From: Demequina phytophila
GTDB lineage: Bacteria; Actinomycetota; Actinomycetes; Actinomycetales; Demequinaceae
DNA: 64,000 bases
Direction: 5' to 3'
Assembly: GCF_000971135.1 (NCBI RefSeq)
Contig: NZ_BBLW01000001.1
Span: forward strand, 62,001-126,000
The first letter of the stretch is position 1; each line of letters begins with the position of its first letter. Below the pieces are notes generated by a model. That model searched no databases and had not been told where the DNA came from. It saw only the letters and a program-made list of their open reading frames with translations. This document shows positions 43,804 through 62,147 of this stretch, piece after piece. The translations under genes were made by a program, and so were the position numbers.

Positions 43804-43956
43804 GGGTGCCCCTCAGTCACGGTGAGTCGTCGTCGCGCGCGCCCGGCGACCCTGCAGGACGGCGCGTCGGTTCACCGTACCGGCGCGCACCGACACCGCC
43901 CGCCCATATGGGTCCCGGCGTGGCGCATCTCACGCACCGCGCGCATCGTCCCTTCC

Positions 43957-45102: not shown

Positions 45103-45148
45103 GACACGCCTCCTCTTGCGACGGTAGGCGTGTTTGTACGCGGCGCGA

Positions 45149-45161
45149 GGGACCTTGGTCC
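45149..45161 (-). promoter_or_regulatory. DosR-like box of the hydrogenase beta-subunit gene
   Basis: GGGACCTTGGTCC, identical to the box at 40245, with the same 47-base spacing to the start codon and a -10-like TACCGT in the interval on the minus strand. The surrounding leaders are alike beyond the box (GCGCGAGGGACCTTGGTCCG in both, and AGGAGGC-GTGTC/ATGTC ribosome regions). It supports hypoxia or redox control of both hydrogenase transcripts by one regulator. Confidence 0.7.
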
Positions 45162-45470
45162 GGGGACACCTTGCTGCTACCTAGCCCGCTGCACGGGCGC
45201 CAGATCGCCAGGTTGAAGCGAGCAGCCCGAGCCTAGGCGACCGGGGGAGCGTCTTCAACTATTCGCAGTGTCAGGCGAAACCGAATGGTCGACTGGCCCG
45301 TGTTCCGCGCAATCACGCACTACCTGGGCGCAGATGTCAAGCTATCGCCCAGGGATCATTGCCGTGACCGAGCCTCCATTTCGAAAGGCGATGTGGGCGG
45401 TACCGGAATCCGCGATGGGCCTCGAGCGGTCATCGCGGCATGGGCCCCGATCGTTGGCGTCCATAGCGAT
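45162..45470. other. Gap at the hydrogenase/defence-island border, no gene recognised
   Basis: The 309 bases show no credible coding sequence (short open frames on the plus strand lack ribosome sites and family features), no tRNA and no direct repeat that could mark an attachment site. Base composition becomes visibly less G+C-rich from here. It should contain the left end of the island and a terminator for darG. Confidence 0.5.
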
Positions 45471-46589
45471 CTAGTCTCCGGCGCGCGCCTCAACAAGGCG
45501 TGAAGCTCGTTCATCGACGACGATGCGGCTCCATCTCTGCGTGCACAACAGCAGCGTGGCATCTGCGATCTCGTAGTCGGAAAAGCGGCCCGGTTTCCAC
45601 TCCTCGACCTTGCTCGCAACGGCCGAGAACGTTGGCGGTTGACCACCAGACCGCTCGGCTTCCGCCGCCACAAAATGCACCGTGGCGGCCACCTCGGCAC
45701 TGCGTAGATTCATGCGATGCATCAGATCGACGGTACGCATCACTTGTTCGCGGAAGGGCTCCAGCTCATGCCTCACGCTCTCGACCGCATCACGGTAGGT
45801 CGGACCAACCAGGACCTCAAACATCTTCCCCGTTTGGGACTCAATCGCGAGGCCGTTGTTCTGCAGTTGGGCGATGCGACGCTTGAGTTCACCACTAAAA
45901 GGACCGTAGGAACCGGCTTCAAAATGGAGACCGGTCTCAATCCCTGCTTGCGTGGCGAAGTAGACCAACTTCTGGAAGAACACCCGCCCGACTGGCCAAT
46001 GTAGGGGCGTGCGCTGGAGGCGGTCCAAGACGGCAACCACCGCAATCCACTCCGCGGGAACCTTCCTCTTACGCTCTAGACGAGCATCATCAAACAAGGC
46101 ATCGACCCCACTCTCAGCAGCAATCCCCGCCGGGACATAGAGTTCGACAGGTATGTCCATACGCGAGAGGTAGCGCACTAAAGTTGGCCCGACGACGTCC
46201 CACTCAAGTTGCCCATTGCCGCAACCGAGGGGTGGCACGGCGATCGACGAAACGCCCCAATCCTTGTAATGCGCCAGCAAGTACTCGAGTCCGGCGACGA
46301 TGTCGTCTAGTTTCGAAACCGACCGCCAATGCGCCTTTGTCGGGAAATTGACTATCTTGCGCTGACCGACCCCATAGACGTAGGGCTCCCCGAGCAGCAC
46401 TTCGTTTCGCTCGCAACGTCGCCTGTAGTCGTCGTACATTGCCGGGTAGCGCTGCTTGAACGCCAACGCAATACCCTTGCCCATGACACCAACTGTGTTG
46501 ACGGTGTTCACCAAGGTCTGGGAAGTCGATAGGAGCAAGTCGCCCGACCGAAGTACCACGTTGCTCGAGCTAGTCATCGAAGTAGACAC
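45471..46589 (-). CDS. darG: DarG: DNA ADP-ribosyl glycohydrolase (antitoxin), macrodomain
   Basis: A 372-residue antitoxin that removes ADP-ribose from DNA. The macrodomain (residues 1-155) has TLVNTVNTVGVMGKGIALAFKQRYP, with the conserved asparagines and the Gly-Lys-Gly of DarG, and SSIAVPPLGCGNGQLEWDVVGP. The C-terminal part (FQKLVYFATQAGIETG and YGPFSGELKRRIAQLQ) is a second, helical domain like that of DarG proteins; it may bind DarT. The gene overlaps the darT stop by 20 bases. Codon use is less G+C-rich than neighbours. Antitoxin first or second order varies; here toxin precedes antitoxin. Confidence 0.88.
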   Translation of the reverse strand: MSTSMTSSSNVVLRSGDLLLSTSQTLVNTVNTVGVMGKGIALAFKQRYPAMYDDYRRRCERNEVLLGEPYVYGVGQRKIVNFPTKAHWRSVSKLDDIVAGLEYLLAHYKDWGVSSIAVPPLGCGNGQLEWDVVGPTLVRYLSRMDIPVELYVPAGIAAESGVDALFDDARLERKRKVPAEWIAVVAVLDRLQRTPLHWPVGRVFFQKLVYFATQAGIETGLHFEAGSYGPFSGELKRRIAQLQNNGLAIESQTGKMFEVLVGPTYRDAVESVRHELEPFREQVMRTVDLMHRMNLRSAEVAATVHFVAAEAERSGGQPPTFSAVASKVEEWKPGRFSDYEIADATLLLCTQRWSRIVVDERASRLVEARAGD

Positions 46590-47208
46590 GGCGATTCACC
46601 TCCACAATCAAGTCTCCCGCAACTGTCTGACACCGCGCCAGGTCGAACCTGTTCCGGACGTACGCTCCGGTGATGTACGTCGCGGGCACGACGTCAGGAA
46701 CGAGAACCTCCGCTTGCCGCTGACGCTTGCGCTCACACTTCTCCCAGTAGTCATCGGAGTTCCAAGAGTGGGCGTACACCCGATCCGGATCGAGCAGATC
46801 CAAGCCAGATCCCGCTGGCTCGAACTTGGTGGCGGCGTTGGCAGCGTTGCCGTCCGTCACGACGACCCCTGGCAGGTCGAGAACTTGAGCCGATACGCGA
46901 AGGACGATCGGGTGTTGATCCCGGATCGCGAACATCATCGCATTCCGCGCATCGAAGTAAAGGTTTACATACTCGTGAAGGGGACGCCCCGGCGGGACGG
47001 CCTTCGTTGCGCGAAGTCGCTGGACGTCTTCGTTCGCCACAGACAGATGCGGAATCGCACCGCTACGCGCATGACTCAAGATCCCAACCTCGAGGATCGA
47101 CGTGATGTTGTCTACGGGGACCATGTAGTGCAACTCCGTGACGCGCGATCGCTCCAAGCCTTGACCTCTCTTGCTACTCGCCGAATAGTACCGGGTGCTC
47201 GCTTCCAT
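46570..47208 (-). CDS. darT: DarT: ssDNA thymidine ADP-ribosyltransferase (toxin)
   Basis: A 212-residue DUF4433 toxin that attaches ADP-ribose to thymidine in single-stranded DNA, halting phage or host replication. The family pattern runs LHYMVPVDNITSILEVGILSH (NAD-binding start), VNLYFDARNAMMFAIRD (conserved Arg), and AEVLVPDVVPATYITGAYV, in which Glu is the catalytic residue. The first 20 codons (MEASTRYYSASSKRGQGLE) are not conserved; translation may begin nearer VTELHYM. It is coupled to darG by overlap. In other bacteria DarTG blocks phages, so the pair is placed in the defence island. Confidence 0.88.
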   Translation of the reverse strand: MEASTRYYSASSKRGQGLERSRVTELHYMVPVDNITSILEVGILSHARSGAIPHLSVANEDVQRLRATKAVPPGRPLHEYVNLYFDARNAMMFAIRDQHPIVLRVSAQVLDLPGVVVTDGNAANAATKFEPAGSGLDLLDPDRVYAHSWNSDDYWEKCERKRQRQAEVLVPDVVPATYITGAYVRNRFDLARCQTVAGDLIVEVNRRVYFDD

Positions 47209-47373
47209 GCACCTACGGCTGAGGGAAATGGCTATCCGAGCATCGGTGCTCGCCGAAGCCCGACCGACACCACCGCGCGGCAGACGCCCTGAGTCTTGAT
47301 TTGCGCCAGGATGGTGGTCTGCGCGTATCCGATGCGCGATCCCGTCCCGAGCTACACGCAGGAGTGCCTACCC

Positions 47374-49323
47374 GTGGTCAATCACGTCTCGTTCATCTGG
47401 AACATCGCCGAGTCTCTGCGGGGCCCGTTCAAGCCCTCCGAGTACGGCTCAGTCGTGCTGCCGTTCACGGTGCTGCGTCGTCTCGACGCGGTCCTCGCCG
47501 AGACCAAGGCCGCGGTCCTCGAGACCGCCCCGACCGTGACCGCCTTGCCGGAGGTGCTGCAGCACATGAAGCTCACCGAAGCGTCGGGCCACGAGTTCTA
47601 CAACACGTCGCCGTTCGACTTCGCCAAGCTCGTCGCCGACCCGAATGATCTGCGTCAGAACATCGCCGCCTACGTCGCAGGCTTCTCTCCGAACGTTCGG
47701 GATATCTTCGACCGCTTCGAGTTTGACAAGACGCTGAACAAGCTCGCTGAGAAGAACAAGCTCTTCGCAGTCGTGGAGAAGTTCGCCCAGGCCGACTTCC
47801 ACCCCAACACCGTCTCGAACATTCAGATGGGCCTCGTGTTCGAGGAGCTGATCCGGTGGGCGAACGAGCGCTCCAACGAGACCGCCGGCGACCACTACAC
47901 CCCCCGCGAGGTCATCTCGCTGATGGTGCAGCTGCTGTTCGCCACCGACGACGACGCCCTGTCCAAGCCCGGCGTCGTGCGCAGCATTTATGACCCCACC
48001 GCCGGCACCGGCGGCATGCTCTCCGTCGCCGACGAACGCCTGCGGGCAATGAACCCCGACATCCAGCTGTCGCTGTACGGCCAGGACTACAACGACGCCT
48101 CCTACGCGATCTGCAAGGCCGACATGGTCATCAAGGGCCAGGACGTCGACAACATCCGCCTCGGCGACACCCTCACCGAGGACCACTTCGAAGACAAGAA
48201 GTTCGACTACGCCCTGTCCAACCCGCCCTTCGGCGTCGACTGGAAGGACCAGCGCGACTTCGTCGACGACGAGCACAAGCGACTCGGGTTCGTGGGCCGC
48301 TTCGGCCCGGGCACCCCCGCAGTGTCCGACGGCGCGATGCTGTTCCTGCTCCACCTCGTGTCCAAGATGCGCAAGGTCGAGGACGGCGGCTCCCGCGTGG
48401 CCATCGTCCTCAACGGCAGCCCGCTGTTCTCCGGCGGTGCGGGCGGAGGCGAGTCCAACATCCGCAAGTACCTGCTCGACAACGACCTCGTCGAGGCGAT
48501 CATCGGACTGCCGAAGGACATGTTCTACAACACCGGCATCTCCACCTACATCTGGATCCTCACCAACCGCAAGACCGACGAGCGGCGCGGCAAGATCCAG
48601 CTCATCGACGCCCGCGAGCTCTACGTCAAGCTCCGCAAGGGGCTCGGGAGCAAGCGCAACGAACTCTCCGCCGACAACGTCGCCGATATCGTCAAGCTCT
48701 ACGCCGAGTTCGAGGACACCGAGCAGTCCAAGATCTTCACCAACGAGGACTTCCTCTACCGCACCATCACCGTCGAGCGCCCCCTCAAGCTCCGCTGGCA
48801 GGCCACGCCAGAGGGCATCGACGCCGTCTTCAACGGGAAGCCCCTGGCCAAGGTCAGCCAGGACGAGGCGGCAGCCTTGCGGGCGGCGCTTGCATCGCTC
48901 GGGGACGATGCGGTGTTCACCAACCGTGACACCTTCCACAAGGCCGTCAAGACCGCCGCCGCTCGGCAGGGTCTCAAGCTAGCCGCACCTATCCTCAAGG
49001 CAGTCACCGCCGCCCTCGGCGAGCAGGACGACACCGCCGACGTCTGCACCGACACCAAGGGCAACCCCGAACCCGACAGCAGTCTGCGCGACACCGAGAA
49101 CGTCCCCTGGACCGAGAACTTCGACGACTACCTCACCCGTGAAGTCCTGCCCTACGCGCCGGAAGCCTGGATCGACCCGTCGAAGACCAAGGAGGGTGCG
49201 GAGATCCCCTTCACCCGCCACTTCTACAAGTACATCCCGCCCCGACCCCTCGACGAGATCGACAACGACCTCGAGCGAGTCATGGCCGACCTCCGCGAGA
49301 TGCTTGATGAGGTCGAAGGATGA
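47374..49323 (+). CDS. hsdM: Type I restriction enzyme, methyltransferase subunit
   Basis: A 649-residue adenine-N6 methyltransferase of the type I class. After the HsdM N-terminal helical domain (NHVSFIWNIAESLRGPFKPSEYGSVVLPFTVLRRLD), the SAM site reads SIYDPTAGTGGMLSVAD, and the catalytic motif IV is NPPFGVDW. Additional segments GQDYNDASYAICKADMVIKGQD and FYNTGISTYIWILTNRK fit. The GTG at 47374 with CAGGAG nine bases before it was chosen; upstream in-frame codons give no homologous residues. It overlaps hsdS by ATGA. Contains one dispersed word (48903), one of only three in the island. Confidence 0.94.
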   Translation: MVNHVSFIWNIAESLRGPFKPSEYGSVVLPFTVLRRLDAVLAETKAAVLETAPTVTALPEVLQHMKLTEASGHEFYNTSPFDFAKLVADPNDLRQNIAAYVAGFSPNVRDIFDRFEFDKTLNKLAEKNKLFAVVEKFAQADFHPNTVSNIQMGLVFEELIRWANERSNETAGDHYTPREVISLMVQLLFATDDDALSKPGVVRSIYDPTAGTGGMLSVADERLRAMNPDIQLSLYGQDYNDASYAICKADMVIKGQDVDNIRLGDTLTEDHFEDKKFDYALSNPPFGVDWKDQRDFVDDEHKRLGFVGRFGPGTPAVSDGAMLFLLHLVSKMRKVEDGGSRVAIVLNGSPLFSGGAGGGESNIRKYLLDNDLVEAIIGLPKDMFYNTGISTYIWILTNRKTDERRGKIQLIDARELYVKLRKGLGSKRNELSADNVADIVKLYAEFEDTEQSKIFTNEDFLYRTITVERPLKLRWQATPEGIDAVFNGKPLAKVSQDEAAALRAALASLGDDAVFTNRDTFHKAVKTAAARQGLKLAAPILKAVTAALGEQDDTADVCTDTKGNPEPDSSLRDTENVPWTENFDDYLTREVLPYAPEAWIDPSKTKEGAEIPFTRHFYKYIPPRPLDEIDNDLERVMADLREMLDEVEG

Positions 49324-50564
49324 CGCGTTTCGGAGCGCTCGTCGAGCGAGTGGACCTGAAGCGGCCGGGTGCTGATCTCCCGCTACTTTCGGTGTCGCAA
49401 ACGCGCGGCGTCCTTCGAAGGAGCGAGCTAACGGACACCCCGGCGCGTGCGGAGTCGCTGGATCACTACAAGACCTGCCAGGAGGGCGACATCGTCTTCA
49501 ACAAGATGAGCGTGCGTGCAGGTGCAATGGGCGTGGCCAGCGAGCCCGGGTACATCACCTACCACTACGAGGTGATGCGGCCGCGACACGGGGTGGACCC
49601 GCGATTCGTCGTGTACCTGATGAAGTCCGAGTGGTTTACATCCGAGATGGTCCGACGCGAGCGTGGCATCGCTGCCGGCGACGACAGCGGATCCGTCCGC
49701 ACGACGGAGGTTCCGTTCAAGGTCCTCAAGACCATCGATGTCCCGGTGCCGTCAGCCGACGGTCAGGTCGCGATCGCGGACTTCCTGGACCGGGAGACCG
49801 CACAGATCGACGCCTTCATCGCGAAGAACGAAGAACTCGTCACCCTCCTCACCGAACGCCGTGCGACTGTTGTCGACACACGCGTCTTCGGCTTGCGCGA
49901 CGGTGACGCTGCGGAGCGTGTAATTCCAGAGTTCGTCAGCCAGAGCGCAGCAATCCGCGACTTCATTGCCCGAATGCCTTCCACTTGGTCAGTAGGACGC
50001 TTCAAGGCGCTCACGAAGCGGTTGGACACGCGGAACGCCAACTCGGCAGCCGCCATGAAGTCGCTCACCGTTTCAGGTGAAGTAGTGCCCCGCAGCTCAA
50101 AACAGAATCCGGACGAATCCAGCATTCCTCGATACCTGCTGGTCTCACCGGGCGACTTGGTCGTCAACCCGATGTGGCTCGTCGGCGGGTCAATCGGCGT
50201 CTCGAACGCGCACGGAGCTGTGAGCCCGGACTACCGCGTGTTCCGCCTTCGTCCAGCGATTCACGACCGCTATCTCCACCACGCAATGAGGTCTCGGCCC
50301 TATCGTCGCCAGTACGAGCTGTTCACACGCGCCGAAACCACATTCGATCGCCGCGTCAGCCAATCCGACCTCGATCGGTTGCCGATTCCGCTACCCGATA
50401 TCGACGAACAAGTTGAGATCGCCCGTGCAATTGATTCTGAATTGGCGCACATCGACAAGACGATCGAGGTTGCACGCACGTCCGTGGACTTGGCTCGTGA
50501 GCGGCGTGCGGCGCTGATCTCGGCGGCGGTGACCGGCAAGATCTCGGTGGGGGTGGACGCATGA
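49320..50564 (+). CDS. hsdS: Type I restriction enzyme, specificity subunit
   Basis: A 414-residue DNA-recognition subunit that selects the target of HsdM/HsdR. It has two target-recognition domains: the first around SQTRGVLRRSELTDTP to VPFKVLKTIDVPVPSADGQ, the second from FVSQSAAIRDFIARMPSTW to RVSQSDLDRLPIPLPDIDEQ, each followed by a conserved helix (AIADFLDRETAQIDAFIAKNEELVTLLTERRATVV; IARAIDSELAHIDKTIEVARTSVDLARERRAALI). The first half is shorter than usual. Single copy, with no inverted partial hsdS nearby, so no sign of phase-variable shuffling. ATGA overlaps join it to hsdM and hsdR. Confidence 0.92.
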   Translation: MTRFGALVERVDLKRPGADLPLLSVSQTRGVLRRSELTDTPARAESLDHYKTCQEGDIVFNKMSVRAGAMGVASEPGYITYHYEVMRPRHGVDPRFVVYLMKSEWFTSEMVRRERGIAAGDDSGSVRTTEVPFKVLKTIDVPVPSADGQVAIADFLDRETAQIDAFIAKNEELVTLLTERRATVVDTRVFGLRDGDAAERVIPEFVSQSAAIRDFIARMPSTWSVGRFKALTKRLDTRNANSAAAMKSLTVSGEVVPRSSKQNPDESSIPRYLLVSPGDLVVNPMWLVGGSIGVSNAHGAVSPDYRVFRLRPAIHDRYLHHAMRSRPYRRQYELFTRAETTFDRRVSQSDLDRLPIPLPDIDEQVEIARAIDSELAHIDKTIEVARTSVDLARERRAALISAAVTGKISVGVDA

Positions 50565-53500
50565 GTGGTGTGGCGGGGGCTCATCTGGAGTCGGTGCTCG
50601 AGGAAGAGATCTGCCAGCACCTTGAGGCGAAGGGGTGGTTGTACTCGCCGACGGATGCAGGCTACGACCAGGCGCTGGCACTGTTCCCGGAGGACGTGCT
50701 CGGGTGGATTGCGGACACGCAGCCGGACGAGTATGCGAAGGTCGTCCGCCCGACGGACAGCCCAACCCAGCGGAGCGCGGCCGAGGGCGTGCTCCTCCAG
50801 AATCTGGCGAAGAGGCTGGACAACGATCCGTTCAAGAACGGCGGCACTCTCGAGATCCTCCGTGGCGGCTTCTCATTCGTGCCGCCGACGGGCGGTGCCG
50901 TGAAGGTGCGGATGGCGCAGTTCCGTCCGGCGACGTCGAACAACCCCGACACGCTCGCCGCCTACGGCAAGATGCGTCTGAGGGTGATGCGGCAGGTTCA
51001 CTACTCGGCGAAGAACCCCTACAAAGCGCTGGACCTCGTGCTGTTCGTCAACGGCCTGCCGGTGGCAACGGTCGAGTTGAAGACCGACTTCACGCAGAAG
51101 ATCGCCAACGCGACGAAGCAATACCAGTTCGATCGCAACCCCGCGGGCGAGCCGCTGTTCGCGTACGGAAAGCGTGCGCTGGTGCACTTCGCGGTCTCGA
51201 ACTCCGAGGTCGCCATGACGACCAAGCTCGCTGGGGCCAAGACGCGGTTCCTGCCGTTTAACCAGGGCGATGACGAGGGCAAGGGCAACCCGCTCAACCC
51301 TGCCGGCAGCGCATCGTCGTACTTCTGGGAGCAGATCCTGGAGCGCGACACGTGGTTGAAGATCGTGGGCTCGTTCATGCACACCCAGGTCGACACCGAG
51401 GTCGACCATGACACTGGCAAGAAGACCCGCGTCGAGAAGATCCTGTTCCCGCGTTACCACCAGTGGCGTGCCGTCACCCGCCTCATCGACGACGCCCGCA
51501 CCCAGGGTTCCGGCCAGCGGTACCTGATCCAGCACTCGGCCGGGTCGGGCAAGACCAACTCGATCTCCTGGCTGGCCCACCAGCTGTCCCAGCTCCACGA
51601 CGCCGACAACGGCAAGGTGTTCGACACCGTCGTCGTGGTGACGGACCGCACGGTTTTGGACAAGCAGCTGCAGGACGCGATCGCGCAGTTCGAGCGTCAT
51701 GCGGGGGTGGTGAAGTCCATCACCCGTGCCGACGAGCACTCCAAGTCTGCCGGGCTCGCGGCCGCGCTGACCGGGGGCAAGCAGATCGTCATTGTCACGA
51801 TCCAGACCTTCGAGGCGCTGATCAAGCTCCTCGACACCGCGCCTGAGCTCAAGGGCAAGCGCTTCGCGGTCATCGCCGACGAGGCCCACTCCTCCCAGAC
51901 GGGCTCCACCGCCGGGGCCTTGACGAAGGTGTTGTCGCCAGACGAACTCGCCGCCGTCGCGGAAGGAGCCGAGGTCGACTCCGAGGCGTACCTGCAGTGG
52001 GCGATGTCCGTCACCGCCCACGCGCCAAACATCTCCTACTTCGCGTTCACCGCCACGCCGAAGGCAAAGACCCTCGAACTGTTCGGCCGGGTCCCTGAAG
52101 GCGGCACGCTGCCGGAGCCGTTCGATCTGTACTCGATGCAGCAGGCGATCGAAGAGGGCTTCATCCTCGACGTGCTGAACAACTACACGCCCTACAAGGT
52201 GGCGTGGTCACTCCAGCACGGCGGTGCGGACTACGACAGCGCGGGCGAGGTCGACGAGTCCACAGCCGTCAAGGCCCTCGTGCAGTACGTGCGCCTGCAC
52301 CCGACGAACATCTCGCAGAAGGCGAAGATCGTCGTCGACCACTTCCGCACCTTCGTGGCGACCGAGCTCGACGGCAAGGCCAAGGCGATGGTCGTCACCG
52401 CCTCCCGGAAGGAGGCGGTGAGGTGGAAGAAGTACCTCGACAAGTACGTCGCCGAGAGCCACATCCAGGGCGTGCAGGCTCTGGTGGCGTTCTCCGGCAC
52501 CGTCGACGACCCCGAAGACGTCGGCGAAGGCCTCACGGAGAAGACCCAGAACCCCGACCTGTGGACCTCGGACCTGGCCGAGGCGTTCAAGCCCTCGACC
52601 TACAACGTGATGATCGTTGCGGAGAAGTTCCAGACCGGCTTCGACCAGCCGCGCCTGGTCGCGATGTACGTCGACAAGAAGCTCGGCGGCGTCCAGGCTG
52701 TCCAGACCCTGTCGCGCCTGAACCGCACGCATCCAGGTAAGGACAAGACGTTCGTCCTCGACTTCGTCAACGAGCCCCAGGACGTGCTCGACGCGTTCCT
52801 GCCGTACTACCGCAAGGCAACCCTGACGGCGACGACGGACGCGAACCTCATCTACGACATCAAGTCCAAGCTCGACAATGCCGGCATCTATGACATGAGC
52901 GAGGTCGAGCAAGCATTCGACGCCGCCCTGACCGGAGGCCCGAACACCAACAGCGCCATCACAGCGGCGACTGCGCCCGCGGTGAGTCGCTTCCGTGCGC
53001 GTTGGGATGAGGCGTTCGTGGCCGAGGACAAGGCCGCGCAGGACGAGCTCAAGCTCTTCAAGTCCGATGCCGGCGCATTCGTGAAGTTCTACGACTTCAT
53101 CTCCCAAGCCCGCAACCTCGAGGACACTGACCTGCCGCGCCTGCACTACTTCCTGCGCCGCATCCTGCCGCAGCTGTCGACCGCGACCTACGAGGAGCCG
53201 GTCGACGTGTCCCAGGTCAAGCTCTCGGGGCTCTCGATCACGAAGGGCGAAGCGGTCAGGCTCACCCTCGAGCAGGGGCCTGGGCTGGACCCGATCATGG
53301 CGATCGGCTCCGGCGCGGTCAACGAGAAGCACCGCAGCGCCCTCGAGGAGATCATCGCCAAGCTCAACGAACGCTTCGGCGACAAGTACGGTCCCGGCGT
53401 CGTCGACGGCACCATCGGCTCCATCGTCGTGCGCCTCGCCCACGACGAGAAGCTCGCCCACCAAGCCGAGGTCAACACCGCACACCAGTTCGCCGAGTCA

Positions 53501-53662
53501 CCTGCACTGCCGAACGCCTTCGCCCAGGCGATCATGGGCGTCCGCGACGACACACCTCAGCTTGTCGATGACATCTTCAGCAACAAGGACCTGTTCGACC
53601 TGCTCAGCAACGCTCTGCCGGCGATGCTCTACGAGCACCTGCGCGGGGAGAGCAGCGAGTAA
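50561..53662 (+). CDS. hsdR: Type I restriction enzyme, restriction/translocation subunit
   Basis: A 1033-residue motor and endonuclease. The N-terminal nuclease domain (PD-(D/E)xK-type) contains LDLVLFVNGLPVATVELKTDF; the helicase has Walker A HSAGSGKTNSISWLA (about residue 328), DEAH box ADEAHSSQTG, FAFTATPKAKTLELFGR, and LQTLSRLNRTHPGKDKTFVLDFVN. The length is normal. It follows hsdS with an ATGA overlap, so the three form one operon. Its stop at 53662 is 67 bases before the GIY-YIG gene. Confidence 0.94.
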   Translation: MSGVAGAHLESVLEEEICQHLEAKGWLYSPTDAGYDQALALFPEDVLGWIADTQPDEYAKVVRPTDSPTQRSAAEGVLLQNLAKRLDNDPFKNGGTLEILRGGFSFVPPTGGAVKVRMAQFRPATSNNPDTLAAYGKMRLRVMRQVHYSAKNPYKALDLVLFVNGLPVATVELKTDFTQKIANATKQYQFDRNPAGEPLFAYGKRALVHFAVSNSEVAMTTKLAGAKTRFLPFNQGDDEGKGNPLNPAGSASSYFWEQILERDTWLKIVGSFMHTQVDTEVDHDTGKKTRVEKILFPRYHQWRAVTRLIDDARTQGSGQRYLIQHSAGSGKTNSISWLAHQLSQLHDADNGKVFDTVVVVTDRTVLDKQLQDAIAQFERHAGVVKSITRADEHSKSAGLAAALTGGKQIVIVTIQTFEALIKLLDTAPELKGKRFAVIADEAHSSQTGSTAGALTKVLSPDELAAVAEGAEVDSEAYLQWAMSVTAHAPNISYFAFTATPKAKTLELFGRVPEGGTLPEPFDLYSMQQAIEEGFILDVLNNYTPYKVAWSLQHGGADYDSAGEVDESTAVKALVQYVRLHPTNISQKAKIVVDHFRTFVATELDGKAKAMVVTASRKEAVRWKKYLDKYVAESHIQGVQALVAFSGTVDDPEDVGEGLTEKTQNPDLWTSDLAEAFKPSTYNVMIVAEKFQTGFDQPRLVAMYVDKKLGGVQAVQTLSRLNRTHPGKDKTFVLDFVNEPQDVLDAFLPYYRKATLTATTDANLIYDIKSKLDNAGIYDMSEVEQAFDAALTGGPNTNSAITAATAPAVSRFRARWDEAFVAEDKAAQDELKLFKSDAGAFVKFYDFISQARNLEDTDLPRLHYFLRRILPQLSTATYEEPVDVSQVKLSGLSITKGEAVRLTLEQGPGLDPIMAIGSGAVNEKHRSALEEIIAKLNERFGDKYGPGVVDGTIGSIVVRLAHDEKLAHQAEVNTAHQFAESPALPNAFAQAIMGVRDDTPQLVDDIFSNKDLFDLLSNALPAMLYEHLRGESSE

Positions 53663-53729
53663 TGGCACCGCAGTTGGGCGCGTTCTATGCCAGGACTCGG
53701 ACGGCGCGCCGCAAAGGAGGGGGGGTCAC

Positions 53730-54518
53730 ATGACCGACGCAATGGCGGCACCCAGTGGGGAACTCGGCGGACAGTCCGTTGCCGACGAGATCCGTGACCG
53801 ACTCAGGGATGACTCGACACGCCTTGGCGACGTCTATCGCCTGGTCGAACAAGGGCTAGAGCCCACGGAAGTGGCCCAGCGCCTCAGCGTTCCGACCGCC
53901 GGCTTCGTCTATTCGTACCGGCTCATGGCCGAGACGTTGATTTCGGGCATTGCACCCAACGGGCCAGTGCTCGCGGGCCAGTTCGCCGGGCGTGTACGCA
54001 AGTGGCTTCGTGAGGGCATTTGGAGTGTCGACGCGCGCGCTCACCTCGAATCCACTTTGGAAAGGCTTGAGGCCGTCGCGGAGCGCAGCGACATCCGGGA
54101 GGAAGAGTCGCGCCAGGCTTCAGAAAGTACCGCCCGGGGCGAGGAGTCTGGCATTCCCGGTGTTTACGTCTACACATATCCCCATTACCTCCGCCATCCA
54201 TACGAACCGTCGTCCGGCAGGACTCTGCTGAAGGTGGGCCAGAGTGGCCGAGATGCCGCAAACCGAGCCGTCAGTCAGGTTCGCGGCACCTTCGTTCCAG
54301 AAGACCCATGGCTCCTACGCATCTACACGTGCGAGAACGTGCAAGAACTCGAAAGAAGTATGCACAGCGCGATCGACGCCGCGGATCACGACAGATCGCC
54401 CGGTAGACGAGCGGGGCGCGAGTGGTTCGTCACGTCGACGAAGTTCCTCGACGTCATTGCGAATCTCGCTGGGGCGTCGGTCGCATTCGTCAACGACTTC
54501 GATGTCCTCGCAGACTGA
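53730..54518 (+). CDS. GIY-YIG-type (T5orf172-like) nuclease protein with N-terminal helical region
   Basis: A 262-residue protein. The C-terminal third has GVYVYTYPHYLR, RTLLKVGQSGRDAANRAVSQVRG, LLRIYTCENVQELERSMHSAIDA and AGREWFVTS. These are the elements of the T5orf172/MUG113 branch of the GIY-YIG nuclease superfamily (Tyr-Val-Tyr, Arg, Glu). The N-terminal ~150 residues, including an alpha-helical DIRDRLRDD-rich part, are not recognised. It follows hsdR by 67 bases on the same strand with a strong AAGGAGG site, so it may be an accessory to the restriction system. Lower G+C codon use than the chromosome. Confidence 0.72.
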   Translation: MTDAMAAPSGELGGQSVADEIRDRLRDDSTRLGDVYRLVEQGLEPTEVAQRLSVPTAGFVYSYRLMAETLISGIAPNGPVLAGQFAGRVRKWLREGIWSVDARAHLESTLERLEAVAERSDIREEESRQASESTARGEESGIPGVYVYTYPHYLRHPYEPSSGRTLLKVGQSGRDAANRAVSQVRGTFVPEDPWLLRIYTCENVQELERSMHSAIDAADHDRSPGRRAGREWFVTSTKFLDVIANLAGASVAFVNDFDVLAD

Positions 54519-54641
54519 CCGAACTGCAGATCTCGCGGACGGAGCGCCCTCGCGCCTCTCGACGGCTCGCGGGCGTGCGCGGGCAGGACGCGCTGGAGAA
54601 CGTTGCGGGCCGTGCATGATGACCCAGGTAGGTTCGTATCC

Positions 54642-55013
54642 GTGGCATCTGATTGGGACGATTTCATCCTCGACTTTGTAGACGCCCTTGGTCGCGAAGA
54701 GTTCACGACCCGCGACTTTCGGCGCAACCTCGGTGTATTTATGGAACGTTTCCCCGACAACACCACCCCCGAAGAAAGCATCCGACGGCGCCTTCAACAC
54801 CTTCGCGACCGCGGAATGATCGAGTTTGTCGATAACAAGGGCACCTACCGACGGGTCCGCGCGGACGGAGCCGCCGGAGCCATGGGAGTTCACGCTCCCA
54901 CCGCGGAGCCACGCAGGAGGTCCGTAGGGCGATCCTCAACGCGCGCGGACGCAGTGTGTCCCCAGTGCTTCACAACCCTCGCCGCAAACGGCGCCTGCGG
55001 CAACTGCGACTAG
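54642..55013 (+). CDS. Small winged-helix protein with C-terminal zinc ribbon
   Basis: A 123-residue protein. The first ~70 residues, FILDFVDALGREEFTTRDFRRNLGVFMERFP and EESIRRRLQHLRDRGMIEFVDNKGTYRR, resemble the winged-helix (modified DNA-sensing) domain at the C-terminus of Dam-replacing/DpnI-type enzymes. The tail ends CPQCFTTLAANGACGNCD, a four-Cys zinc ribbon. A separate nuclease domain is missing. The GTG at 54642 follows AGGTAGG; longer frames begin without a ribosome site. It sits between the restriction and helicase modules; it may be a regulator or a DNA-binding part of either (inference). Confidence 0.65.
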   Translation: MASDWDDFILDFVDALGREEFTTRDFRRNLGVFMERFPDNTTPEESIRRRLQHLRDRGMIEFVDNKGTYRRVRADGAAGAMGVHAPTAEPRRRSVGRSSTRADAVCPQCFTTLAANGACGNCD

Positions 55014-55146: not shown

Positions 55147-58100
55147 TTATCCGACACGCGGCGGGCTGAGGTCGATCCGCATCCACTCGCTTGCCTGGCC
55201 AAGCGCCTGGATCAGCTCGTCCTGGCGGGGCTGGCCGAGCAGCTGCCGGTACGCGACGACGGTGCGCAACAGCCTCCGATAGTGCTGGAGCTCGCGACTC
55301 AGCGGGAGTGCCGGTACGTAGCGCTCGATCTTCGCTCCACCCTCGGGCGCGAAGACCCAGAACGGCACCACCTCGGAGTCCTCGCCTGAGCGCGAGGCGA
55401 CGGCTGCTGCGAACACATCGGCCCAGGGATCGTCGCTGCCGTCGAGCCCATGGCGCCCGAACTCGCGCGCGACGTTCTTGCGCACGGCGTGGCCCTTGTA
55501 TCGGTGGACCCGCCCCTCGCGCTGCTCGAGGTCGACGGGGTTGCCCGGCAGGTTCCAGTGCACGATCGCGTGGGAGTAGGTATGGAAGTCCAGGCCCTCC
55601 TGCCCCACCGAGGTCGACGCGAGCACGAACGGCCGGAACGGCGAGTTGTAGGCAACTCGCACCGTGCCCTCGCGCATCAGCGCACTGTCGCTTGACTGCA
55701 AGCGCCCGTACCTTGCGGCGAAGTGGCTCGACATGCGTTGAGGTTCCGCGACCACGCGACCGTCCTCGACGCGCACATCCTCGACCACGTTCGTCGCGGT
55801 GCGGATCGCGAGGGCCTCATGCATGACCTCCGCGATGGTGCCCGCTCGGTCGAGCGGCTCAACGTCCTGGAGCCCCTCGGACTCGACCAGCACATGGGCG
55901 TACTCGTCCAGCACCGACTGGAGGCAGCCATCGAGCCCATGGCGCGCCACCTCGCGCCAGTACGCCTCGCCACCTTCCGAACGCAGCAACGCGACGATCT
56001 CCGGCTTGTTGAACATCGACCTGAGCCCTTGCGCCACCGTGAACGCCGCGTTGCGCAAGGTCGGCTCTGCCCGGACGGCGTCGCCTCCGCACACGCGCCC
56101 GAGCGCACGCAGCGCGACCACTGCCGGCCCGCCCAGGGCGAGCTCCGTGAGGATCTCGGCCAGGTCGTGCGGCCACGCTCCGAGCCCGAGCGCTTCAGCA
56201 TCGGAGCTGGTACGAATCGCGTCAATACCGGACAGCACGTCCAGGTGCGCGTCGATCCGCCCGCTGCCCCCGTCCGCCTCGTCCTCGGCCTGGCCCTTGA
56301 GCGTGCGCACGAAGTCCCCAGCACGCGCGTCGAGCTCGCGATCAAGGAGAGTCGGCGCGACCCAGTACCACCGTGCGTCCGTCGCACCGCCGTCGACCGC
56401 GTACGCGCGCACGGTATCCAGACGCGCCTCGATGCGGGCCCGCACGATGCCGATGACCTCGTCACGGTCCATCGGCATCGTTCCGGCCGCACGGGCGATC
56501 GCGAGCGGATCGCCCACCTCCGCTAGCGCCGGCGAGGGAAACAGGAGCGCGAAGGTCGTCCCCGAGGCCCGGAACTGCAGCGGTGGCGTGGGGGGACGAT
56601 GCGCGTCGTAGTCGCGGGTGGCACCCCCGTTGGCCTCGACCGTGCGCCGCTCGGCTTCGTAGCTCGTCATCACGGCGACGGCCTTCGGCACCACAGCCCA
56701 TGCGGAGAACACGAGGCGCTTGGTGAACTCGGTCAGGGCGGGATCGGAATAGGCGCCGCGCGGGTTGTAGTACGGCATCGACGGCGGGAGCCAGGCCAGC
56801 TGCCACGCTCCCCTGTCGAGCACATCTGAGAAGAGCCCGCGTAGCTTCGCGTTCCCGGGGTCTACCCCGCGGTACTTCACCACGTCCTGCCACTCGAGGA
56901 GCCCGCCGGCATCGGCGAGAATCTCGGCGAGGTGCGGATCCTCCCTGTCGACGGCCGCCTCGAAGTGCTGACGCACCTGGTAGGAGTTGCGTTCCATCAG
57001 GTTGAGCGGGTACGGCGTGCTCCGCCAGTACTCGAACACGTCATGCCTGTCGAGGGCGCGGGCGACCCTGTCGAAGGTCACCCAGGCGTCCACGTCTCCC
57101 GCGCCGAGCGCGAGGCCCGGCAGGTCACGATGCTGCAGCATGCCGTCGCGATCGGGCGTCGAAGACAACCGCTCCGTGCGTGCCATCACGCGCCTCAGCT
57201 CGGCCTCGACACGGTCGCGCGCACCCACGGCGTCCGGTGCGGCGCCCGCGAGCGCGGTGTCGCGCATCGTCCTGAGATCGCGGCGTACCCGCGAGGCGGC
57301 GTCGTCGCCCGCAAGGAACGCGACCGTGCGGTTGAAGTCTGCGAAATGGTCGTCGCCGGCTGGCTCATCGGGAAGCGTGTACATCTTGAAGGGCGTCGCG
57401 GACAGCAGCAGCACGCGAGCGCTCACGTGGTCGAACACCTCGCGCGCTAGATCGGCGCCATAGCCGTCGCCATCAAGGACGTCCTTGAACCGCTGGAACT
57501 CGTCGAGGATGACGAGATCCGGCTCGAGGTGCTCGACTCCGGCCTTCGCGACAAGGTGTCGCAGGGCTCCGACCAGGTGGTCGCGCTTCCAGCGCAGATG
57601 TTGCGGCGGCCACCCCCGCAGGTGCGTGAATTCGAGCACGCACTCCTCGAGCTCGTCCCTCAACGGCGCGCCCTGAGGCCCAACGGCGCGAGCCACCTCC
57701 TCGTGGAACGAGTCGACCAACCGTTGGTCGAGGGTCGAGGTGTCGAACCACCCGAGCTGCGCCTCGTAGCGGTCGCGCCTCACTCCGCCTCGGAAGAACT
57801 TCACCCACGCTGCCTTGCGCGCGATGTCCCGGCCCCACCGCTCCGCGAGCATCCAGTGGAGCAGCACACGCTCTCGCACCGCTCCCCCGGTGCTGCCCAC
57901 TGCGAACGACGTGCCCGGCGTGAACGACACGAAGTTGATCTTCTGTCCCCGCAGCTCGCGGATCACGGAAGGCAGGAGCGTGAGCCGATCGGCGTGCCGC
58001 ATCTCGGCACCGCCCACCACGTTGAGGCGACTGAGGTTCTGCCGGGCGACCTGGGAGTTCGAGCAGATGTAGACGATGTCGATCCGCTCCTCCTTGTCCC

Positions 58101-58290
58101 AGAGGTAGTCCACCGTCTTCGCGATGACGCCCTTCGCGACCATGGTCTTGCCCAGCCCGACTTCGTCGGCCACCAGGAAGCGCTTGGTCCAGTCGTCGTC
58201 TGTCCAGAGTCGACGGAACGCGTAGTCGACGGTGTCGCGTTGGAAGTCCTTGAGGCTCGCGAGGATCTTCTCCTGGTCGGGCTTCGTCAT
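55147..58290 (-). CDS. Large SF2 helicase (SNF2/DEAD-like), third gene of a defence-type operon
   Basis: A 1047-residue ATP-dependent DNA translocase or helicase. The N-terminal half has Walker A VADEVGLGKTMVAKG (residues 40-54), LVILDEFQRFKDVL (a DEFQ variant of the DEAH box, about residue 262) and VLLLSATPFKMYTLP. The C-terminal half has STSVGQEGLDFHTYSHAIVHWNLPGNPVDLEQREGRVHRYKGH, helicase motifs V and VI. A long insert between the lobes has no named domain. It is coupled by ATGA to the PLD gene. It has the helicase-plus-PLD pairing of known defence systems such as DISARM but no DrmB (DUF1998). Anti-phage activity is inferred. Confidence 0.85.
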   Translation of the reverse strand: MTKPDQEKILASLKDFQRDTVDYAFRRLWTDDDWTKRFLVADEVGLGKTMVAKGVIAKTVDYLWDKEERIDIVYICSNSQVARQNLSRLNVVGGAEMRHADRLTLLPSVIRELRGQKINFVSFTPGTSFAVGSTGGAVRERVLLHWMLAERWGRDIARKAAWVKFFRGGVRRDRYEAQLGWFDTSTLDQRLVDSFHEEVARAVGPQGAPLRDELEECVLEFTHLRGWPPQHLRWKRDHLVGALRHLVAKAGVEHLEPDLVILDEFQRFKDVLDGDGYGADLAREVFDHVSARVLLLSATPFKMYTLPDEPAGDDHFADFNRTVAFLAGDDAASRVRRDLRTMRDTALAGAAPDAVGARDRVEAELRRVMARTERLSSTPDRDGMLQHRDLPGLALGAGDVDAWVTFDRVARALDRHDVFEYWRSTPYPLNLMERNSYQVRQHFEAAVDREDPHLAEILADAGGLLEWQDVVKYRGVDPGNAKLRGLFSDVLDRGAWQLAWLPPSMPYYNPRGAYSDPALTEFTKRLVFSAWAVVPKAVAVMTSYEAERRTVEANGGATRDYDAHRPPTPPLQFRASGTTFALLFPSPALAEVGDPLAIARAAGTMPMDRDEVIGIVRARIEARLDTVRAYAVDGGATDARWYWVAPTLLDRELDARAGDFVRTLKGQAEDEADGGSGRIDAHLDVLSGIDAIRTSSDAEALGLGAWPHDLAEILTELALGGPAVVALRALGRVCGGDAVRAEPTLRNAAFTVAQGLRSMFNKPEIVALLRSEGGEAYWREVARHGLDGCLQSVLDEYAHVLVESEGLQDVEPLDRAGTIAEVMHEALAIRTATNVVEDVRVEDGRVVAEPQRMSSHFAARYGRLQSSDSALMREGTVRVAYNSPFRPFVLASTSVGQEGLDFHTYSHAIVHWNLPGNPVDLEQREGRVHRYKGHAVRKNVAREFGRHGLDGSDDPWADVFAAAVASRSGEDSEVVPFWVFAPEGGAKIERYVPALPLSRELQHYRRLLRTVVAYRQLLGQPRQDELIQALGQASEWMRIDLSPPRVG

Positions 58291-60110
58291 GAGCGTCGCT
58301 CCTGGTGAACCGCCCACACGACCGCCCAGAGCTCCTCGAATCCCTCGGGCAGGCCCGGCCCGCGGTCCATCTGTTGGATCTCCTCAACGGCGCTTGCGAT
58401 GCGCGCCAGCGCTCCCTCGTCGCGTCCCGTCGCCCTCACCATGGGCTCGAACAATGCGATGTCGAGGTTCTCGCCGGCAGGCGCGTCGCCCCACCGGCTC
58501 TCACCGCCTGCGCCAGCGAGATCGGCGAGCAGCGCATCGTACGCAGGGTCACCCAGCAAGAACACGAGGTAGCGGAGCACGTCCTGCGGCGTGCGCAGCA
58601 CCGAACCCATCGCCTCCCTGCGCCGGTCGCCGACGTCGCCTGTCAACTCGGCCTTCACGACGCATCGTCGCGTGACGCGAGCGTCGCCCTCACCCGCGGA
58701 CGTCTCGACCGCGATGAACGGGGTGACGTTCGCTCTCGCGAGGCGCCAGGTCATATCCGCCGCCATGCCAGCGGCGTGGGCATCTCGCCCGAGCGAGATC
58801 GGCCACACGCGCGTCTCGCCGACCACGGGCTCCGGCCAGCGCATGCGGACCGCGAGGTCGACGGTGTCGCCGTCTGTGGTGGGGACCGTTGCCGTGATGC
58901 CGCGCTCGGCAACAGCGCGCTGGAACGCCTCGATCGCGTACGTCACAGCGATGCTCGGGTCGTCGATCCCGTCGGCGTCCGCAATGTCGACGGCCTCGAG
59001 CATGCGGGTCAATCCAGGGGCGTCGACCGTGCCGTCAAGGACGGACTTCACGCCGCAGTCACGCGTACGGCCAGTGAGCACGACATCGAACTCGACGTTG
59101 CGGCCCCATCGACTGCTGGTGAGGTTCGCACTTCCGGTCACCACCATCGAGCGCGAACCCTTGAGGTCCAGCACATACGTCTTGGCGTGCACGCCCTCGT
59201 GGGTACCGACCAATTCGGAGACCGCTCGCGCTGCCTCCCCGATGTCCTCGCCGGGATCCGCCTCGGCGATGCGCTGCAGGACGTTGGCGTGCCAGCCATC
59301 GAGGGCGCGCGATCCCATGAGCTCCAGCGTCTCCTGGCGCGACACGAGGGTCCTCTCGCGAGAGATGCTTGCCAGCGCGTCGAGGCCACCCCGGGTGAGG
59401 AACGGGCTGATGGCGAGGAGACGATGCGCATCGTCCGGGAACGGCCAGACGTCTCGACCGTCGAGTCCGATGGGCACCATGGCGCCCCCATCAAAGCCCG
59501 ATGGCGGCGCGAAGGCGACGCTCGCCAGGCTTGCGCTGAGCTCTGCGATGTCCTGCATGCGAGCCGGGCCGAGCGGTCGCAGGGCGAGACCCGGCAGCGA
59601 GCCGACGAACTCTGCGAGAGGAAGAGCCGCGATGGCACCGGCCGGGTCCTCGTCGAGCACGAGGGCGGTGTCCCACGACCGGTCCTGCGTGAGGTTGCGA
59701 CTGAGGACCACTGCGCGATGCCGGAGTCCGCCGCACTCCTCACGGAACCGCAGGGCCCACACCTTGGGGTGGAAGATCGCGCCATCCGTAGGGGCCACGA
59801 CCTCGACCACGCTGTCCTCGACGAAGGTTACAAGCGAGCGGTAGGCCGGAGGGACGTCGATTCCCCCGGCCTGGCAGAACACCGTGGTGCGGTCCGCATG
59901 CCTGCGGACGGCCTCGAGGAGCGCGATCGGGTCGGTCGCGTCGCCGTTCGCGTCGGCCGTACGCTCCTGCATCGCGAACGAGAGCGGCGCCATCAGCAGC
60001 GACGTGAGGTTGAGCGAGTAGGTGGTGCCGACGGCGATGTCCAGCGCGAAGCCCGCCGGAGGTCGCAACGCGTCGGTGAGGAGGACGCGGGTCTCGGGTG
60101 CGAGCGTCAT
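58287..60110 (-). CDS. Phospholipase-D-like (HKD) nuclease protein
   Basis: A 607-residue cytoplasmic protein with two HxK segments: IFHPKVWALRFREECG (about residue 113) and VHAKTYVLDLKGSRSMVVTGSANLTSSRWG (about residue 306), the latter including the GSxN of PLD nucleases. PLD-type proteins of this sort cut nucleic acid without a metal. It begins at ATG 60110, overlapping the DUF6361-like gene by ATGA, and ends overlapping the helicase gene the same way, so all three are made in fixed proportion. The C-terminal 250 residues are not assigned to a family. A dispersed word (59428) lies near the middle. Confidence 0.82.
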   Translation of the reverse strand: MTLAPETRVLLTDALRPPAGFALDIAVGTTYSLNLTSLLMAPLSFAMQERTADANGDATDPIALLEAVRRHADRTTVFCQAGGIDVPPAYRSLVTFVEDSVVEVVAPTDGAIFHPKVWALRFREECGGLRHRAVVLSRNLTQDRSWDTALVLDEDPAGAIAALPLAEFVGSLPGLALRPLGPARMQDIAELSASLASVAFAPPSGFDGGAMVPIGLDGRDVWPFPDDAHRLLAISPFLTRGGLDALASISRERTLVSRQETLELMGSRALDGWHANVLQRIAEADPGEDIGEAARAVSELVGTHEGVHAKTYVLDLKGSRSMVVTGSANLTSSRWGRNVEFDVVLTGRTRDCGVKSVLDGTVDAPGLTRMLEAVDIADADGIDDPSIAVTYAIEAFQRAVAERGITATVPTTDGDTVDLAVRMRWPEPVVGETRVWPISLGRDAHAAGMAADMTWRLARANVTPFIAVETSAGEGDARVTRRCVVKAELTGDVGDRRREAMGSVLRTPQDVLRYLVFLLGDPAYDALLADLAGAGGESRWGDAPAGENLDIALFEPMVRATGRDEGALARIASAVEEIQQMDRGPGLPEGFEELWAVVWAVHQERRS

Positions 60111-61321
60111 GCGGCGTCCCGGGCGTCGTAGAGGTCTCCCAGATGCGAGCGAGTGATGTCCCAGCGATACGCGAGCCGACCGAGACCGCTCGATCCCGAC
60201 CACCGGTCCAGGGCCGACTGATTGTGGAGGCGCGCTCGGCCTCCCTTGATCTGACGCTCGCGATTGGACACGAGACGTGCCGCTTCCGGACTGGTCACCA
60301 GGTCATCGTCGGCTTCGACCACCGTGAGCCATTCGTCGACGAACGTCCGGGTCATCGACCGCAGTCGCGGGTTGCGCTCGGCGATGGTCGCCCAGAACGC
60401 CGCCCGGTCCCATTCGCGGGCCGCCTGCGCGGGCGCCTCCTCACGCTGCCATGAGACCAATGCGGCCTCGTGCCTGTCGCGTGCGTCATCCCGTCCGGAC
60501 TTCCGCGCGAGCGCGACGTTGTAGACGAGTGCGGCACCGTGCATGACGAGGCTGAAACGCCGGGCGTGGTCGACCAATGCGCGATTCGCGGGGTCGAGCG
60601 CGTCGAGGTTCGCGATCTCCCAGGGCGCTGTTGCTGCGGTGTCGCCAAGTCCCGACCCGAGATTCTCGGGACGGTTGCGGACCAGCCACGCGAGCAGCGA
60701 GCCGTGCGTGGATGTCGCGATGCGTGTCGAGAGGTACTCCTCGTCCTCGGGCGTGAGCACGAAGGTCACCTTCGCCATGAGATCTTCGGGCGCAGAGTGA
60801 AGGTTCGCGTCGATACCCGACGAGGGAAGCAGCTCGCGAGCCTCAGGGTCGTCGGCGGCCGCGGTGCGGCGCGCAAGGCTGCGAAAGTCGCTCTGCTTCC
60901 TGAAGAACCCTTGCGCCGAGCCGGCATCGACGATCCCCCACCGCCCGAGCACGGACCAGTAGGCGACGCTCGGCAGGCGCTTGAGCTGTCGTCCTGCGAC
61001 GTTGCCCATCACCCCTTCGACCTCGCCGCCCTGTGTCAGGCTGCCGATGAGCCGGAACTCGAGCTCGCGGAACTCGGCGGCCATGTAGTCGGGCGTGCGC
61101 TTCGCGGCGGCGCGCCGCATGAGCCACGGCAGGAACAGCACGTACCGGAGGCGCGTATGAAGGGTTGACGTGCCAGGGAACATGGCATCCGCAAGCGTGT
61201 CGCGTATGGAACCGATACCGAGCTCGTCGATGGTGCCCTGCTCGCGGAACAGCTCCACGATCTCGATCATCCTGCGGCGTTGCGCGTCGTCGTTGTCGAG
61301 CCAGCCGAAGCTTGAGGTCAT
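60107..61321 (-). CDS. DUF6361-like protein, first gene of the helicase/PLD operon
   Basis: A 404-residue protein of the DUF6361 type, with conserved SSFGWLDNDDAQRRRMIEIVELFREQGTIDELGIGSIRDTLADAMFPGTS, RLRYVLFLPWLM and ELEFRLIGSL in the first 110 residues. No enzyme motif is visible. The start ATG at 61321 was chosen as the beginning of the conserved segment; frames upstream lack conservation. It leads the operon of DUF6361-like protein, PLD nuclease and helicase; the family occurs with the same partners elsewhere, to my recollection, but its role is unknown. Confidence 0.72.
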   Translation of the reverse strand: MTSSFGWLDNDDAQRRRMIEIVELFREQGTIDELGIGSIRDTLADAMFPGTSTLHTRLRYVLFLPWLMRRAAAKRTPDYMAAEFRELEFRLIGSLTQGGEVEGVMGNVAGRQLKRLPSVAYWSVLGRWGIVDAGSAQGFFRKQSDFRSLARRTAAADDPEARELLPSSGIDANLHSAPEDLMAKVTFVLTPEDEEYLSTRIATSTHGSLLAWLVRNRPENLGSGLGDTAATAPWEIANLDALDPANRALVDHARRFSLVMHGAALVYNVALARKSGRDDARDRHEAALVSWQREEAPAQAAREWDRAAFWATIAERNPRLRSMTRTFVDEWLTVVEADDDLVTSPEAARLVSNRERQIKGGRARLHNQSALDRWSGSSGLGRLAYRWDITRSHLGDLYDARDAA

Positions 61322-61418
61322 GCCACGATTCTGGCCGCGCACGCACCAAACAGGGCCGCGCCACGAGCAGGCGCGCGACATCCGGAGCTCCGTCAGAGGC
61401 AGCCGCTACGGTCAGTAC

Positions 61419-62147
61419 ATGCCAGATCACCAGGACGCGACGGAGCACCCGGGGCCGACCTACCTTGGCTTGGACGCGTGCAAGACCGGGTGGGTCGTCG
61501 CCGTGATCGACGACTCTGGCTGGGTCGACGCCTTCGTCGCGCCCGCCATCGCCACCGCGGAGTCGCACGGCGTGGCCGCGTTCGGCGCCGGGCATCTGGT
61601 CGTCGACATCCCCATCGGCATCCCAGACGCCGGGCCGCGGTCGGCGGATCAAATCGCGCGACGCTTCATCTCCCCGCGCGGCTCGAGCGCCTTCCCCACC
61701 CCGGTCCGACCGGCGCTCATCGCACCGACCTACGAGGCGGCCCGCGTTGCGTCGCTTGCCGCGTTCGGCAAGAGCCTTTCCAAGCAGGCGTACGCGATCG
61801 CGGACCGGATCCTGGACGTGGACGGCCACGTCGCAAGCGCCACCATCCCGATTCTCGAGCGCCATCCCGAGGTGAGCTTCCGCGCGATGGCGGGCGAAGG
61901 CATTGTCTACCCCAAGAAGGCCTTCGCGGGAGCCTCGCTGCGGCTGGCGCTGCTTGCAGCCGAGGGTATCGACGTCCCTGTCGGGATCGAACGCTCGCTG
62001 CCCGGGGCGGCTTGGGACGACGTGCTTGACGCCGCTGCCATGGCGTGGACCGCGCGGCGCGTGGCGCGCGGCGAGGCCGACCGTTTCCCCGCGGAGATCG
62101 ATTCCGAGCGCTTCAGCGACGGCATCGATTCGGCGATCTGGCTCTAG
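61419..62147 (+). CDS. DUF429 family protein (RNase H-like fold predicted)
   Basis: A 242-residue DUF429 protein. Conserved segments are YLGLDACKTGWVVAVID (Asp near the N-terminus), HLVVDIPIGIPDAGPRSADQIARRFISPRGSSAFPTP and AYAIADRILDVD, then ILERHPEVSFRAMAG (Glu, His) and WDDVLDAAAMAWTARRVARG (Asp-Asp-Ala-Ala), with acidic residues that would form an RNase H-like active site. Function unknown. The gene is divergent from the DUF6361-like gene, with a 97-base gap for both promoters. Whether it belongs to the defence island or to the flanking chromosome is uncertain. Confidence 0.85.
   Translation: MPDHQDATEHPGPTYLGLDACKTGWVVAVIDDSGWVDAFVAPAIATAESHGVAAFGAGHLVVDIPIGIPDAGPRSADQIARRFISPRGSSAFPTPVRPALIAPTYEAARVASLAAFGKSLSKQAYAIADRILDVDGHVASATIPILERHPEVSFRAMAGEGIVYPKKAFAGASLRLALLAAEGIDVPVGIERSLPGAAWDDVLDAAAMAWTARRVARGEADRFPAEIDSERFSDGIDSAIWL

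Follow-up and report, generated by a model that had tools for sequence, protein, structure and literature searches.

A predicted Azaca operon within a chromosomal hotspot for defence genes in Demequina phytophila

Background

An Azaca system is defined by the presence of all three of its genes, zacA, zacB and zacC, and phage protection by another member of the system was reportedly observed by Millman et al. in 2022. Excerpts of published work attribute the system to Millman et al. 2022 and list a PLD-like domain for it (PMC10952713), place ZacC among the SF1 and SF2 defence helicases (PMC12278908), and describe Azaca as a system enriched in Actinobacteria (PMC10482375). A find of Azaca is a find of a known system, yet the mechanism is listed as unknown in the excerpts of PMC10482375 and PMC12926258, and no paper on the mechanism was found among the titles and abstract openings of the literature searched. 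Hachiman is described, in an excerpt of PMC12278908, as a system in which a helicase sensor is combined with a nuclease effector.

Identity and layout of the locus

The stretch of DNA analysed here, referred to as the window, comprises 64,000 nucleotides of the Demequina phytophila genome. Judged from its sequence, the locus at 55147-61321 of the window (Table 1) is almost certainly a complete Azaca operon encoding ZacA, ZacB and ZacC, an already named defence system. Profile searches of the three proteins against PADLOC-DB 2.0.0, Pfam and NCBIfam yielded PADLOC matches of 426.7 bits for ZacA (E of 3.2e-128, profile positions 1-393 of 396), 551.6 bits for ZacB (6.5e-166, positions 2-585 of 586) and 1138.4 bits for ZacC (E=0, positions 4-1016 of 1019), and because these matches are full-length at E of 1e-128 or lower they are not due to chance. 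ZacA also matches Pfam DUF6361 at 208 bits (cut-off 25). Each gene begins with an ATG and, by ORF reading, neighbouring genes share 4 nt at each of the two junctions; the three genes are adjacent and on one strand, which is the arrangement expected of Azaca. The initial annotation of this DNA had described three overlapping genes on the same strand that encode a DUF6361-like protein, a PLD protein and an SF2 helicase, and both its coordinates and these assignments are borne out by the Pfam and PADLOC matches and by the gene layout. The Azaca proteins of the window share 61-80% identity with their three nearest relatives and 23-45% with the other members compared.

Table 1. Features of the Azaca locus and its surroundings (positions are those of the window).
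Feature	Coordinates	Strand	Evidence
DarG antitoxin	45471-46589	-	PADLOC DarG 295 bits, Pfam Macro 59 bits
DarT toxin	46570-47208	-	PADLOC DarT 131 bits
hsdM, type I restriction operon	47296-49323	+	PADLOC and Pfam
hsdS, type I restriction operon	49320-50564	+	PADLOC and Pfam
hsdR, type I restriction operon	50561-53662	+	PADLOC and Pfam
zacC, large SF2/SNF2-like helicase, 1047 aa	55147-58290	-	PADLOC ZacC; motifs and insert
zacB, PLD-like protein, 607 aa	58287-60110	-	PADLOC ZacB; invariant half-site residues
zacA, DUF6361 protein, 404 aa	60107-61321	-	PADLOC ZacA and Pfam DUF6361
Presumed promoter region, 97 nt, 5′ of zacA and of the divergent DUF429 gene	61322-61418		Sequence reading
DUF429 gene, RNase H-like family, at the margin of the defence slot, not counted as part of Azaca	61419-62147	+	Pfam 150 bits

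Conserved motifs of ZacC and ZacB

ZacC matches Pfam Helicase_C with 30 bits and DEAD with 26.5 bits (cut-off 26), and its motifs comprise a Walker A GLGK at residues 45-48, DEFQ at 263-266, SAT (motif III) at 297-299 and a set of C-terminal motifs at approximately 880-940. When 14 ZacC sequences are aligned, GLGK, DEFQ, SAT and the C-terminal QREGR are invariant in all of them. The DEFQ box had been regarded as a variant; it is indeed present but not odd, as its invariance in 14/14 sequences makes it the normal motif II of the family. The two helicase halves are separated by a long insert, correctly noted in the initial annotation, that is 581 residues long in the window copy and is a feature of the family, with 552-601 residues in 14/14 members. 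No Pfam model matches the window protein between motif III and the C-terminal motifs at E up to 0.1, and the residues of the insert that are invariant among the 14 aligned sequences include R371, E373, W500, K524 and W778. By sequence, the nearest solved relative of ZacC is RapA (2.9e-5), the match covering approximately 44 residues of motif.

By analogy with other PLD enzymes, the two half-sites of the ZacB chain would build one active site. The first half-site of ZacB, H114-P-K116...R138-N139, has no Pfam match, and the second, H308-x-K310...G326-S-x-N329...E340, contains the HxK that is covered by a weak match to Pfam PLDc_2 (26 bits, just below the cut-off of 27). The elements F-H-P-K...R-N...W-D and H-x-K...G-S-x-N...E are kept in an alignment of 14 ZacB sequences, and the two HxK segments reported earlier for the nuclease are invariant (14/14); the catalytic motifs of both the helicase and the PLD protein are thus intact in all 14 aligned sequences. 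The nearest solved relative of ZacB by sequence, a 'putative helicase' (7clg, 9.5e-7), aligns with the second half-site, as does the restriction endonuclease 2c1l at chance level (E 0.5). AlphaFold2 models of ZacA and ZacB were each built from two sequences, that of the window and that of locus L002. Since these models are too poor to read (mean pLDDT of 33 for ZacB and 44 for ZacA), it is from the motifs that ZacB is predicted to be a pseudodimer.

Gene order and distribution

Other genomes were searched for the three-gene set, as proposed in the initial annotation, and in all of the other complete loci examined (12/12) the order zacA-zacB-zacC and the single strand are kept. These loci comprise seven from actinobacteria (L002, L070, L072, L073, L075, L076 and L078), four plasmid records opened from a total of 46, and one phage-labelled scaffold; the last five (L082-L086) are a haloarchaeal plasmid, three alphaproteobacterial plasmids and the scaffold. 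With script-chosen starts, zacA and zacB overlap by 4 nt in four and by 8 nt in two of the eight other readable actinobacterial loci, and a 4-nt overlap of zacB with zacC is seen in 4/7. In the Halomarina plasmid copy an HNH endonuclease gene precedes zacA. On the conjugative plasmid of Bradyrhizobium sp. 195 (L083 535-16065), genes for a PD-(D/E)XK nuclease and a UvrD helicase are found just 5′ of zacA (14 nt), and SbcCD-like genes follow zacC on the opposite strand.

Among 396 Actinomycetota genomes ZacC was found at 911-1155 bits in five, and the other matches listed reach at most 81.1 bits. At E up to 0.001 the ZacC model matches 126 of the 396 genomes, the low-scoring matches among those listed being helicase motifs or fragments; because the model also matches 6/14 control genomes at this threshold, only full-length scores are counted. 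ZacA is present in 8/396 Actinomycetota genomes and in none of the 14 control genomes; six of the copies are long, with 329 or more of the 396 profile positions, and two are fragments, which span 124 profile positions in L080 (4567-5698, genome G204) and 76 in L081 (7550-7774, G133). No full ZacB or ZacC was seen near either fragment in the 20 kb read, and the two fragments are probably decayed Azaca copies. In G144 zacA and zacB are present and run to the contig end; in G206 zacA and zacC each lie at the end of a short contig of their own, and zacB was not seen.

Within the family of the window ZacC exceeds 1000 bits in 6/47 genomes searched, in one of which it is interrupted by a contig end. 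The family belongs to a phylum for which an excerpt of PMC10482375 gives Azaca enrichment. The ZacC of Demequina pelophila (G413), from the genus of the window, is 80% identical to that of the window. Among 72,556 plasmid records, 46 hold a relative of ZacC at E of 1e-30 or lower, and in 42 of these the match covers at least 80% of the query; 19 of the 46 are Cronobacter records, which were listed only. Profile scans with ZacA, ZacB and ZacC revealed no relative among viral contigs, and a ZacA search of 50,697 phage records returned one unannotated scaffold, which carries all three zac genes. This is MT835621.1 (L085 10001-16251), a phage-labelled faecal scaffold with a divergent zacA-zacB-zacC set of 23-31% identity.

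The defence slot and the DUF429 gene

Azaca sits in a chromosomal hotspot of defence genes, a slot whose defence cargo is exchangeable, as one relative that has both flanks (G405) shows. The island at 45.4-61.4 kb of the window contains DarTG, type I restriction, a T5orf172 ORF and Azaca. DarTG and the type I operon had been named as neighbours in the initial annotation, which holds, with DarTG at a distance of 8 to 10 kb from Azaca and the type I operon in between. Behind hsdR, at 53562-55013 (+), are the T5orf172 ORF, which we take to be of the GIY-YIG type, and a 136-aa ORF that matches the end of the PADLOC mREase_II model with 34 bits. In G405 approximately 7.3 kb separate the left flank (window 42835-45165) from the DUF429 gene on the right, and the genes in between are different ones, which encode a PDC-S48 protein that has an exonuclease domain (444 bits), a helicase of the Schlafen type and a DUF262 (GmrSD N-terminal) protein. 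Beyond DUF429, too, the window and G405 have their flank in common.

According to an excerpt of PMC3985635, DUF429 is RNase H-like and its genomic context is conserved in close relatives. Within the family of the window DUF429 is near zacA in four of the five Azaca genomes readable at that place (in the sixth, G431, a contig end interrupts the locus, and it is left out of the count), at 97 nt or approximately 0.1 kb in G000, G404 and G436 and at approximately 1 kb in G416; the genome of G413 carries Azaca but gave no match to DUF429. In L080 the ZacA fragment directly follows a DUF429 gene. Among the family genomes that lack Azaca and have DUF429, 7/9 have a GmrSD, DUF262 or McrBC gene within approximately 0.8 kb of it. 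This sample holds nine of 12 such genomes (G419, G439 and G440 being left out) and one copy per genome, though G401 and G429 carry two, with surrounding ORFs picked by script or by length. In G427 the surroundings contain only a type I methylase approximately 2.4 kb away and an ORF that weakly matches DzbB, and in G407 nothing was recognised near DUF429.

A general role of DUF429 as an Azaca accessory was considered and rejected, as the gene is absent from the stretches of the four annotated plasmid Azaca loci and showed no restriction link in the wider class. In that class 29 of 72 DUF429 matches were taken with one frame per side, and among the Pfam families found in at least two of these 58 frames (25 of 108 families listed) there was no restriction family, and two generic AAA families occurred in two frames each. 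DUF429 was found in 11 plasmid records, of which 10 were opened and nine are annotated, with DUF262 nearby in 2/9. The edge of a hotspot explains the proximity of DUF429 and zacA better than an accessory role does, and a local link between DUF429 and restriction genes within the family of the window is compatible with these counts.

Proposed mechanism and alternatives

Taken as a whole, the best explanation, and a probable one, is an Azaca operon in a hotspot with a ZacB nuclease that is gated by ZacC; for the translocase and gated-nuclease mechanism as such, which is read from sequence, the chances are about even. Here, ZacC would use ATP to move along DNA as an SNF2-like translocase and survey it, and its insert together with ZacA, an adaptor or sensor, would restrain the PLD-type nuclease ZacB and set the timing of its release. 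The two HxK half-sites of ZacB would fold into one active site that cuts DNA, and phage DNA would be destroyed, or all cell DNA if the release is unspecific. The analysis shows the identity of the operon, its gene set and order, the conserved catalytic motifs and the hotspot setting; complex formation, the DNA substrate and the roles given to ZacA and the insert are what we infer. More speculatively, the ZacC insert, from haloarchaeon to actinobacteria, might be a new module for sensing or docking through which ZacA is coupled to a PLD nuclease with two half-sites, and Azaca would in that case recognise foreign DNA without a methylation mark; this is offered tentatively. Candidate residues from the alignment are H114, K116, N139, H308, K310 and N329 of ZacB and K48, D263 and E264 of ZacC, along with the insert.

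Abortive infection overlaps with this explanation and differs in what is destroyed: ZacC would sense broken or replicating DNA and free ZacB to cut all cell DNA, as in Hachiman, which serves as a precedent (PMC12278908, in excerpt). This is a real possibility, if not the favoured one. In its favour, it is unlikely that a methylase partner marks self-DNA as a general rule, because there is no methyltransferase in the operon and no annotated methylase in three of four annotated plasmid neighbourhoods (for the stretch seen, the PLSDB gene table being incomplete); against it, the Bradyrhizobium elkanii neighbourhood does have methylases beside Azaca and a type I methylase is nearby in the window. 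Sequence alone does not distinguish direct degradation from abortive release.

It is improbable that ZacB is instead a membrane-acting phospholipase switched on by ZacC as a DNA sensor. PLD enzymes may also act on lipids, ZacB belongs to the PLD superfamily, and three of four plasmid records carry the annotation 'phospholipase D family protein'; however, what ZacB matches in defence libraries and among solved structures (DrmC, mREase_IV, 7clg), weakly and on the second half-site in every case, are PLD proteins from defence or restriction systems, which speaks against this reading.

Comparison with known systems

The initial annotation had proposed an antiviral module, most probably undescribed or poorly described, and had named a match to a characterised system as contrary evidence. 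Such a match was found: the observation is confirmed and the claim of novelty is wrong, because all three genes match PADLOC Azaca end to end. Antiviral module is apt by family and as a three-gene unit, and poorly described is apt for the mechanism only, as listed in the excerpt of PMC10482375, since the system itself is named. That no NCBIfam model is matched above its cut-off by any of the three proteins, and that the word DUF6361 occurs in no paper of the literature searched, leaves an undescribed system with next to no likelihood when all three proteins are Azaca in PADLOC and the name is in print.

DISARM, or a DISARM-like system with a missing drmB, resembles the locus in that an SNF2-like helicase is paired with a PLD protein, and in PADLOC ZacC matches DrmD and DrmA models and ZacB matches DrmC models. 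These matches reach at most 39 bits and cover approximately 40-90 residues of motifs that helicases or PLD proteins have in common, whereas the Azaca models give 1138 bits for ZacC and 552 bits for ZacB, and NCBIfam DrmD (49.5 of 610 bits) and DrmC (20.7 of 133 bits) remain far under their cut-offs. DISARM calls for drmB and for drmA/drmC or drmD at family score, which the operon and the neighbouring ORFs scanned do not supply: the operon has no methylase, and no DrmB was found among the PADLOC matches listed for 11 neighbouring ORFs (best 25 families for HsdM and HsdS), in agreement with the earlier remark that drmB is absent. With motif-level matches on one side and full-length Azaca matches on the other, the DISARM-like reading was rejected as having virtually no probability.

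Other systems share parts with the locus. PDC-M27, a PADLOC candidate system, is matched by ZacC (PDC-M27C, 63 bits) and ZacB (PDC-M27B, 18 bits), but only in part and over common motifs. The C-terminal helicase motifs of ZacC resemble DpdE of Dpd (50 bits) and BrxHI of BREX (35 bits), yet neither model is matched over its length and no other Dpd or BREX protein is present in the operon. Hachiman (HamAB) is likewise a nuclease-helicase pair and, from the excerpt seen, a possible model for sensing, but it consists of two proteins, HamA and HamB, whereas Azaca has three. HamA is, to our knowledge, not a PLD protein. From Azaca the locus of the window differs in nothing of substance: it has the same three full-length proteins, order, strand and motifs, and the three-gene module is Azaca in place of a falsely claimed novelty.
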